Positions 55,671 to 58,084 of a stretch of 64,000 nucleotides of DNA are shown in pieces; position 1 is the stretch's first letter, and each line of letters begins with the position of its first letter. The stretch lies in the NCBI RefSeq assembly GCF_022829585.1, contig NZ_JAKSYC010000069.1:1-64000 (forward strand), read 5' to 3'. The notes beneath the pieces are model-generated. The model was not told the origin of the DNA and made no database searches. It was given only the letters and a program-made list of their open reading frames with translations. The translations under genes and the position numbers were made by a program. The stretch is from Methylobacterium sp. J-026 (GTDB taxonomy: Bacteria > Pseudomonadota > Alphaproteobacteria > Rhizobiales > Beijerinckiaceae).

Positions 55671-56534
55671 CTACCGGACCACCGGCGGCCGCGGCATGCG
55701 GAAGGGCAGCATCAGCTGCACCAGCGGGTTCCGGAAGCGATCCAGCGACAGGCTCTCGTGCATCGCCCGGACCGGCTCGCCGCAGAGCGTCGAGGCGAGC
55801 AGCGAGCGGGCGTAGAAGGGCGTGTTCTCGTAGGTGGCGAGAACCCGCGCGCGGCCGTCGTCGCTGCGGGTCTCCCGGCCCACCCGCCAGAGGCGGGTCG
55901 CCGGCAGGGCGGCGGCGACCGGCGGGCGGATCTCACGGCGGCTGCCGTCCCGGGCGAAGCGCAGCGACAGGTTCTGGCCGCCGCCCTCCCGGTGATGCAC
56001 GTCGTAGAGGATCGCGGCGCCGTCCGGCAGGTCGGCGCGGCACCAGGTCCAGCGGGAGAACGCCGCCTCCAGCGCCTCGTCGCCGTCATTGGTGTCAAAG
56101 TAGGCGCTCCCGCTCCAGCGCAGGCCAGGCTGCGCGAAATCGACTTCGACGCGGGAGGAGGGCGCCATCGGCCACCAGCGGTGGCGTCCGGCCCGGTCCA
56201 GGTGGAACGGGCCGGCGGTGAAGCCCGGCGGCTCCAGCCGGACGGTGCCGCGCAGGGCGAAGGGCAGGGGCGCACCGCGCTCGTCGATGCGGATCGTCAG
56301 CGCCGTGCCGTCCCAGTGCATGGCGCTCGGGCCGATGGCGATATGGTCGGCGTCCCGCGACAGGCTGTGGCCCCGGCGCTCCGTCATGGCGAAGCGGCTG
56401 CGCGCGCCGTAGAGGACCACGTTCATGGCGCAATGGGCGAACGGATCCCGCTCGGCGCTCCAGGCATAGTAGGGCGAGAACACGCTGCCGATGAACGCGA
56501 TGATCGTGAGGCCCTGACGGCCGTCGTCGCTCAC
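55671..56534 (-). CDS. crtC: Acyclic carotenoid 1,2-hydratase (hydroxyneurosporene synthase)
   Basis: Adds water to the end of neurosporene or lycopene in the spirilloxanthin/spheroidene pathway. From GTG 56534 (VSDDGRQGLTIIAFIGSVFSPYYAW) it has 287 residues, close to short Rhodobacter CrtC proteins. It includes HCAMNVVLYG and a C-terminal TYENTPFYARSLL. The start overlaps the crtD stop (GTGA). The same frame upstream, inside crtD, reads FDGPVAQGGYAWWYVDA, which looks like the N-terminus of longer CrtC proteins, but no ATG, GTG or TTG lies there, so the true start is unresolved. Confidence 0.85.
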   Translation of the reverse strand: MSDDGRQGLTIIAFIGSVFSPYYAWSAERDPFAHCAMNVVLYGARSRFAMTERRGHSLSRDADHIAIGPSAMHWDGTALTIRIDERGAPLPFALRGTVRLEPPGFTAGPFHLDRAGRHRWWPMAPSSRVEVDFAQPGLRWSGSAYFDTNDGDEALEAAFSRWTWCRADLPDGAAILYDVHHREGGGQNLSLRFARDGSRREIRPPVAAALPATRLWRVGRETRSDDGRARVLATYENTPFYARSLLASTLCGEPVRAMHESLSLDRFRNPLVQLMLPFRMPRPPVVR

Positions 56535-58084
56535 CGCATCGACGTACCACCACGCGTAGCCGCCCTGGGCGACCGGGCCGTCGAAGCGAGGTCGTCCAGG
56601 ATCGCCGCCGCGGCCAGCCGGCCCGACTGCGCCGCCATCGGCACGCCGGGGCCCGGATGGACCGAGCCCCCCGCCAGGTAGAGGCCCGGCACCGCCGTCC
56701 GGGCGCCGGCCCGTTTGAACGTCGCCGCCCAGCCCTGTGCCGCCCGGCCGTAGAGCGCGCCCCCCGTCCCGGGAAACAAGGCCTCGAACGCCGCCGGCGT
56801 CGTCACCGCCGGGGCCGACGCCGCGTCCAGGCTCAGCCCGCAGGCCTCCAGCCGGCGGTACAGGGTCCGCGTGCATGTCTCGATCTCCGGCGGCGTGAGC
56901 GGGCGGTCCCGGCCATCCGCCGGGGCGTTGACGAGCAGGAGCAGCCGCTCCGGTCCGGCGGAAACGGTGCCGGACTCGGTCCTGTCCTGGGCGCAGATGT
57001 AGACGGTCGGGTCGTCGGGCAGGCGCCGGTCGCGCAGGATCGCGTCGAACTCGGCGCGGTAGTCCCGCGAGAAGAACACGGAATGGTGGGCCAGGGGGAA
57101 GCCCGTGGGCACCGCCGTGGTGCAGAGGGTCACGGCCGAGAGCGAGCGCTCGGCGGGCGCCAGCCGCGCGCCGGCCGCGGCCGCGTCCGGCCCGAGCAGC
57201 CCGGCCCCCAGGGCGGCGCAATCGGCGTTGCAGACGATGCGGTCGGTAGCGATCCGCTCGCCGCCCGCGAGCACGATCCCGGCGACCCGGCCGCGCTCGA
57301 CGACGATCCGCTCCACATGGGCGCCGTAGCGGAATGCCGCGCCCCGCGCGGCGGCGAGATCCGCCACCGCCCGCGCCAGGGCGCTCAAACCCCCCGCCAC
57401 GGTCCAGACCCCCGCCTGCTCCACATGGGCGACGAGCATCAGGGTCGCCGGCGCGCTGAACGGCGAGGCGCCGCAATAGGTGGCGTAGCGTCCGAACAGC
57501 TGCAGCAGCCGCGGATCGCGGAAGAAGCTGCCCAATGCCGACCACAGGGTGGCGAAGGGCTGGATCCGCCAGAGATCGCCGAGCCCGGACAGCCCGACCC
57601 GCTGCGCGAGGCCCGCCGGGCTGGTCCGCCCGTCGCGGATGAACGGCCCCTCCAGCGTGCGGTAGACCTCCGCCGAGCGGGCGCAGAACCGCCGGTAGCC
57701 CTCGGCCTCCCGGGGACCCGCGAAGGCGTCGACGGAGGCCGCCGAGGCCTCGATATCGGCGAACAGATCGAGCCGTTCCGTGCGGCTCCAGGCGTGCCGG
57801 GCGAGGAGATCCGCCCGCGTCAGCACAACCCGGTCTTCGAGGTGCGCGCCGCATTCGGCGAAGAGTTCCTCGAACACCCAGCGCATGGTGAAGACGGTCG
57901 GCCCGGCCTCGACCGCCCGGTCTCCGACCGGAACGCTGCGCATCTTTCCGCCGGGACGCGCGGCCCGTTCCAGGACGGTGACGTCGAGGCCGGCCTGCGC
58001 CAGCCGGAGGGCGGCGGCCAAGCCGCCGATCCCGGCCCCGATCACGACGACGCGTTCCTGCGCCACGTTCGCCCCGCTCTGCAC
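56531..58084 (-). CDS. crtD: Hydroxyneurosporene/methoxyneurosporene desaturase
   Basis: A 517-residue FAD-dependent C-3,4 desaturase, paralogous to CrtI. The dinucleotide motif VVVIGAGIGGLAAALRL is at about residues 12-28, the early VEAGPTVFTMRWVFEELF distinguishes CrtD, and LYLAGGSVHPGPGVPMAAQSGRLAA is the C-terminal FAD signature. It starts at GTG 58084; GTG 58066 would begin VAQERVVVIGAG and is also plausible. It is divergent from crtE with a shared PpsR-type operator 32 bases upstream, and is coupled to crtC. Confidence 0.94.
   Translation of the reverse strand: MQSGANVAQERVVVIGAGIGGLAAALRLAQAGLDVTVLERAARPGGKMRSVPVGDRAVEAGPTVFTMRWVFEELFAECGAHLEDRVVLTRADLLARHAWSRTERLDLFADIEASAASVDAFAGPREAEGYRRFCARSAEVYRTLEGPFIRDGRTSPAGLAQRVGLSGLGDLWRIQPFATLWSALGSFFRDPRLLQLFGRYATYCGASPFSAPATLMLVAHVEQAGVWTVAGGLSALARAVADLAAARGAAFRYGAHVERIVVERGRVAGIVLAGGERIATDRIVCNADCAALGAGLLGPDAAAAGARLAPAERSLSAVTLCTTAVPTGFPLAHHSVFFSRDYRAEFDAILRDRRLPDDPTVYICAQDRTESGTVSAGPERLLLLVNAPADGRDRPLTPPEIETCTRTLYRRLEACGLSLDAASAPAVTTPAAFEALFPGTGGALYGRAAQGWAATFKRAGARTAVPGLYLAGGSVHPGPGVPMAAQSGRLAAAAILDDLASTARSPRAATRGGTSMR

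Follow-up and report, generated by a model that had tools for sequence, protein, structure and literature searches.

A conserved ATG inside crtD as the probable start codon of crtC

Genes and features at the crtD–crtC locus

The window, i.e., the whole 64,000-nucleotide stretch of the Methylobacterium sp. J-026 contig NZ_JAKSYC010000069.1 that was analysed, carries crtD and crtC on the same strand, with the proposed start of the re-annotated crtC lying within crtD (Table 1). The crtD product scores 690.5 bits against the NCBIfam model NF045637 (cut-off 580), and the match covers residues 12–498, to about position 56591, the last 19 residues being read across codons of the CrtC core. The second gene is read as crtC from its catalytic residues, a predicted AttH-like fold and its neighbour: its product reaches 275.7 bits against NF045922 (model positions 1–273 of 278), with the equivalog cut-off of 400 not reached, and no Pfam family matched it at E 1e-3. 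The best PDB match of its AlphaFold model is 2ich (putative AttH; E 1.9e-10, TM 0.50/0.61, rmsd 6.2), and we take the CrtC fold to be this AttH-like two-barrel arrangement. Two beta-barrels are named for CrtC in PMC12402844. The residues H232, W234, Y259 and D261 are invariant in 17 aligned CrtC sequences, and H239, W241, Y266 and D268 are the catalytic residues given for Rubrivivax CrtC (PMC4717167); the window protein thus resembles the CrtC of Rubrivivax and Thiocapsa in family and in the catalytic His/Trp/Tyr/Asp.

Table 1. Features of the crtD–crtC locus in the window
Feature	Positions	Strand	Basis or remark
crtD	56531..58084	-	open frame and NCBIfam CrtD model NF045637
crtC, re-annotated, 401 aa	55671..56876	-	from the candidate ATG at 56876 down to a stop that ends at 55671; open frame, conserved ATG column
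crtD/crtC overlap, same-strand, out-of-frame, 346 nt	56531..56876	-	
CrtC N-terminal extension, 95 codons	56592..56876	-	out of frame within crtD
CrtC N-terminal core (PRFDGPVAQGGYAWWYVDA)	56535..56591	-	still within crtD; has most of the first beta strand
Proposed crtC start ATG	56874..56876	-	conserved column, open frame
Shine-Dalgarno-like GGAG (CCGGAGATCGAGACATG)	56885..56888	-	8 nt before ATG 56876
Trp109 codon	56550..56552	-	equivalent by numbering to the Rubrivivax active-site Trp110
GTG of the original prediction	56532..56534	-	late in the first beta strand, past the Trp pair

The crtC frame lies one base behind that of crtD (−1), and the GTG at 56534–56532 shares bases with the crtD stop TGA at 56533–56531. 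Upstream of this GTG the crtC frame remains open far upstream, reading ..GRPRFDGPVAQGGYAWWYVDA.., and includes the segment PRFDGPVAQGGYAWWYVDA, which the original prediction had recognised there and which is indeed conserved in CrtC proteins. The same prediction had found no start codon near this segment, which holds at close range: ATG, GTG and TTG are in fact absent for about 340 nt (56876 to 56534), but the frame then meets ATG 56876. Lying 342 nt before the GTG with no break in the frame, this ATG takes its A from the wobble base of a crtD Thr codon (ACA) and its TG from the first two bases of a crtD Cys codon (TGC).

The W-W-Y part of the core was present in the crtC frame in 80/80 of the first loci gathered (Methylobacteriaceae, Skermanella, Roseospira, Rhodobaculum, Acetobacteraceae and others), a sample that was found by peptide patterns, one of them within this very segment, and that is not unbiased; across these loci, much of the segment's variation falls at crtC third codon positions. 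Residues G11, Y12, W14, W15, Y16 and D18, all upstream of the GTG, are invariant in 12 diverse sequences, and W109 of the window in the 17 aligned ones. The equivalence of this Trp to the Rubrivivax active-site residue (PMC12402844) takes S132-V133-F134 of the latter protein as the SVF of GSVFSP in the window (offset 96). In the AlphaFold model of the 401-aa CrtC, residues 107–116 form the first beta strand with high confidence, and residues 1–92 have a pLDDT below 50, near 30, so that the extension is predicted to be disordered. The match to NF045922, for its part, opens at IIAFIG (model position 1), downstream of the Trp pair, and the model may therefore derive from truncated gene models.

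The start column across crtD–crtC loci

The comparison was widened from an early column count of 156 loci by 80 added stretches, namely 67/68 genomes without a locus (G1054 being omitted), G796 and 12/77 further genus places picked by hand. Merging exact duplicates left 233 loci, and nine with no crtD in the expected upstream frame were set aside: four at a contig edge or with short upstream sequence (L105, L179, L236, L285), two without such a crtD (L125, L149), one with crtD in another frame (L143) and two with a broken frame (L297, L299). The resulting 224 unique loci, the window among them, include many close relatives and are not independent of one another; 30 loci from a crtD search (L190–L219) and two that the motif did not locate (L262, L284) stand outside this set.

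An open-frame ATG 300–375 nt before the Trp codon was present in 151/156 unique loci of the early count, and on alignment to the crtD protein the ATG fell in one column in 151/156. In the enlarged set the same crtD column holds ATG in 218 of the 224 loci, with GTG in two more and TTG in one, and ATG is likewise present in L262 and L284 and in 11/11 plasmid loci, four of which (L186–L189) are also among the 224. By hand count, the ATG is found in one or more loci under 22 of the 25 family labels that have crtC loci; it is absent from families f28, f181 and f183, each seen with one crtC locus. The A of the column stands at the crtD wobble position in 219/224 loci, as against 8.2% for third positions across crtD, and the crtD residue there differs among loci (T 69, R 49, Q 37, A 29, S 12, I 7 and P 6 being the commonest). 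AGGAG or GGAG lies at −18 to −4 of the column in 173/224 loci.

The reading frame that follows is kept open. From the start to PRFD there are no stops in 221/221 loci having a start at the column, as compared with 296 stops, in 113 loci, for equal stretches just upstream; in almost every locus the open crtC frame runs to at least about 400 codons. Synonymous shuffling of 153 loci (the early set without L127, L146 and L159) gave 112 stops expected and none observed in the overlap, and 257 expected against 153 observed in the upstream stretch; since this null is too high upstream as well, some of the scarcity of stops is not specific to the overlap. The extension is 95 codons long in 47 of the 153 loci and 96 in 56, and the overlap of the two genes has a median of 358 nt across 221 loci (range 298–457), the longest being that of L231.

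Three of the 224 loci have no start at the column: L015, where the frame is broken in crtD; L127, with an ATG at −291; and L146, where the crtC ATG at −45 overlaps the crtD stop in an ATGA-type junction. The proximal ATG of L146 suggests that the extension is dispensable. A proximal crtC ATG is also seen at −36 in L143, and the arrangement in these two loci is possibly ancestral or reverted. In three Methylobacterium loci (L015, L297, L299) crtD and the crtC extension shift frame together immediately ahead of the crtD GGSxHPGPG motif, on or close to a run of G; the shift may be either a sequencing error or a real change of phase.

Four crtD genes whose neighbouring crtC does not use the column start served as controls: the first crtD of Thiodictyon in L186 and those of L211, L212 and L219. 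Their codons at the column are GTG, AGC, TCA and CTG, with ATG in 0/4. The neighbouring Cys is retained in 2/4 of these genes lacking the ATG, which marks the Cys as a trait of CrtD and the A as not one. In L212 and L219, however, the crtC frame is stop-free as well, a point against the proposed start. In L211 crtC lies apart, whereas L219 is the L143 locus and L212 the L146 locus itself, so that the controls are both few (n=4) and not wholly separate. The Thiodictyon plasmid pTs485 (L186, positions 1–2516) carries a tandem crtD pair; the overlap with crtC and the crtC-frame ATG are both confined to the second copy.

Selection in the extension and in the core

The codon positions at which relatives differ were compared in 34 pairs from 18 Methylobacteriaceae within a set range of identity. 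In the extension, 63% of the differences leave CrtD unchanged and 16% leave CrtC unchanged, close to the pattern where crtD stands alone (57% and 19%); in PRFD..DA the order is reversed, with 53% silent for crtC and 28% for crtD, on the side of crtC alone (63% and 20%). Absence of selection on the crtC frame upstream of 56534, which would have refuted the original prediction, is thus not what the alignments show, PRFD..DA being under such selection. A second group offered three pairs with 11 differences in the core segment and is anecdotal. Between the upstream stretch and the overlap, divergence at crtD fourfold sites goes from 0.431 to 0.378 among 81 Methylobacteriaceae, from 0.592 to 0.479 among 35 'Rhodobacteraceae-like' loci (a working label for the family of G362 and one plasmid relative), and from 0.553 to 0.529 among 37 others. 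At the amino-acid level the fourfold sites and the codon positions suggest, at most, a mild constraint on the extension.

As the differences follow the crtD frame through the extension and the crtC frame from PRFD onward, the extension looks like a byproduct and PRFD..DA like enzyme core. Judged by sequence, the extension is mainly crtD read in another frame: its start codon, its ribosome-binding site and its freedom from stops are preserved, its own protein sequence is under little or no selection, and PRFD marks the beginning of the enzyme proper.

The start of CrtC and its relation to known systems

The open frame, the conserved start with its ribosome-binding site, the avoidance of stops and a selection pattern that changes frame at PRFD are established at the level of sequence, and from them we infer that ATG 56876 is used in the cell. 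A conserved ATG in an open frame at this position implies a CrtC of 401 aa and an overlap of 346 nt with crtD. Thus, crtC very probably has its own start inside crtD, with about 95 out-of-frame residues ahead of a core that opens at PRFD. The original prediction had instead seen a gene without a usable start codon, and a non-standard start, a ribosomal frameshift giving a CrtD–CrtC fusion or a remnant kept by overlap had been its accounts. These lose their footing once ATG 56876, an ordinary codon preceded by GGAG, is found in the same frame and its column is occupied by ATG in nearly all loci; most likely, then, a real conserved segment had been seen and too exotic a conclusion drawn from it, the start being ordinary and its place unusual.

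A −1 frameshift near the end of crtD is in keeping with the crtC frame being −1 to crtD and with the CrtD model ending at 56591, where selection on the crtC frame begins. Such a fusion is nevertheless very unlikely, as inspection of 129 junction sequences by eye revealed no common slippery heptamer, the linker varies in both length and sequence, and the conserved ATG, the Shine-Dalgarno sequence and 95 stop-free codons would be left without explanation. The open-frame length of at least about 400 codons and the shared ATG led to its rejection; a +1 slip out of the third frame was likewise rejected, no start common to the loci being visible there by eye. The abrupt onset of crtC-frame selection near PRFD might also be read as non-canonical initiation close by, which is extremely improbable: the crtC frame of the window has no ATG, GTG, TTG, CTG, ATT, ATC or ATA between CTG 56732 and GTG 56534, and no near-cognate codon common to the relatives was seen by eye.

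Initiation at GTG 56534 itself, or at the in-frame GTG at −21 found in several loci, with the conservation upstream being irrelevant, would offer the classical coupling arrangement of a GTGA overlap with the crtD stop. It would also agree with the annotation of 8 of the 10 plasmid records with an annotated crtC, which begin after the Trp pair; the other two begin between the ATG and the Trp pair and none at the ATG, though the column ATG is present in 10/10. Against it, the upstream residues are under crtC-frame selection and supply an active-site Trp together with the greater part of the first beta strand, the codon at +18 is CTG, GTA, GTC or TTG rather than GTG in many loci, and six of the ten annotations fall back on CTG, ATC, ATA or ATT (L300, L301, L302, L303, L305, L187), non-standard starts that are apparently forced by overlap rules. 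This account is accordingly held to be highly improbable, and GTG 56534 was rejected as the main start for the loss of the Trp and most of the strand that it would entail. The GTG at −21, where present, makes a second, shorter CrtC product possible.

With initiation at ATG 56876, a ribosome would bind the GGAG inside crtD and begin crtC on an mRNA that is also under translation for CrtD, and the CrtC product would bear a disordered tail that may be tolerated or clipped. Keeping the start inside crtD might tie the synthesis of CrtC to the translation of CrtD. It is possible, as a tentative reading, that the overlap of about 350 nt, held in most of the sampled crtC-bearing genomes and across 22 families, reflects selection on the position of the start and its ribosome-binding site, which would presumably set the CrtC:CrtD output by ribosome traffic, the tail itself being disposable. 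The locus may be seen as a clean natural test of why an in-gene start site is kept. The hidden ATG would also explain the inconsistent annotation of CrtC starts, which often leaves out the active-site Trp, and a CrtC cloned from such an annotation would risk being inactive.

Long forms of CrtC are already known: those of Rubrivivax gelatinosus and Thiocapsa roseopersicina are 44 kDa, as are RrCrtC and BrCrtC (PMC4717167). By numbering, about 96 residues precede the PRFD core of the Rubrivivax enzyme, much as in the window, and as they end before the same P, the published long form would start at an equivalent place. The Rubrivivax and Thiocapsa enzymes retain activity without their first 45 and 57 residues, respectively (PMC4717167), so that the extension can be spared to that length at least; the Thiocapsa enzyme is cleaved between S57 and S58 when expressed in E. 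coli (PMC4717167). The long RrCrtC and BrCrtC are inactive on lycopene, as are the shorter ones that were expressed (PMC4717167), and activity thus does not separate long from short CrtC. The accessible parts of PMC4717167 and PMC12402844 call the N-terminus unconserved and dispensable and make no mention of an out-of-frame origin in crtD. The statement that Rubrivivax residues 1–125 contain no conserved residue (PMC4717167) clashes with the invariant Trp pair seen here and with Trp110 of PMC12402844, and we suspect that truncated database entries in the alignment of the former caused the clash. No description of the crtD/crtC overlap was found in the literature searched (titles and abstract openings, with subscription journals mostly outside), and the word 'overlap' is absent from the main text of the purple-bacteria review PMC10604819.

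What is unusual is the length of the overlap and the depth of its conservation, which spans many proteobacterial families. A survey of 338 genomes accepted no co-directional overlap of at least 60 bp as real, the longest real one being 56 bp (PMC2478687); crtD/crtC would be a real and deeply conserved same-strand overlap several times that length. The holD/rimI pair of enterobacteria is similar in being a same-strand coding overlap conserved among relatives, and differs in spanning 32–56 bp (PMC2478687) as against 298–457 nt for crtD/crtC. A parallel might also be drawn with the GTGA and ATGA stop–start couplings, which join neighbouring same-strand genes as here, the junction of L146 being one of the latter type. 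In contrast to these short junctions, the crtC start of the window and of most loci appears to precede the crtD stop by about 350 nt and to have a Shine-Dalgarno sequence of its own.
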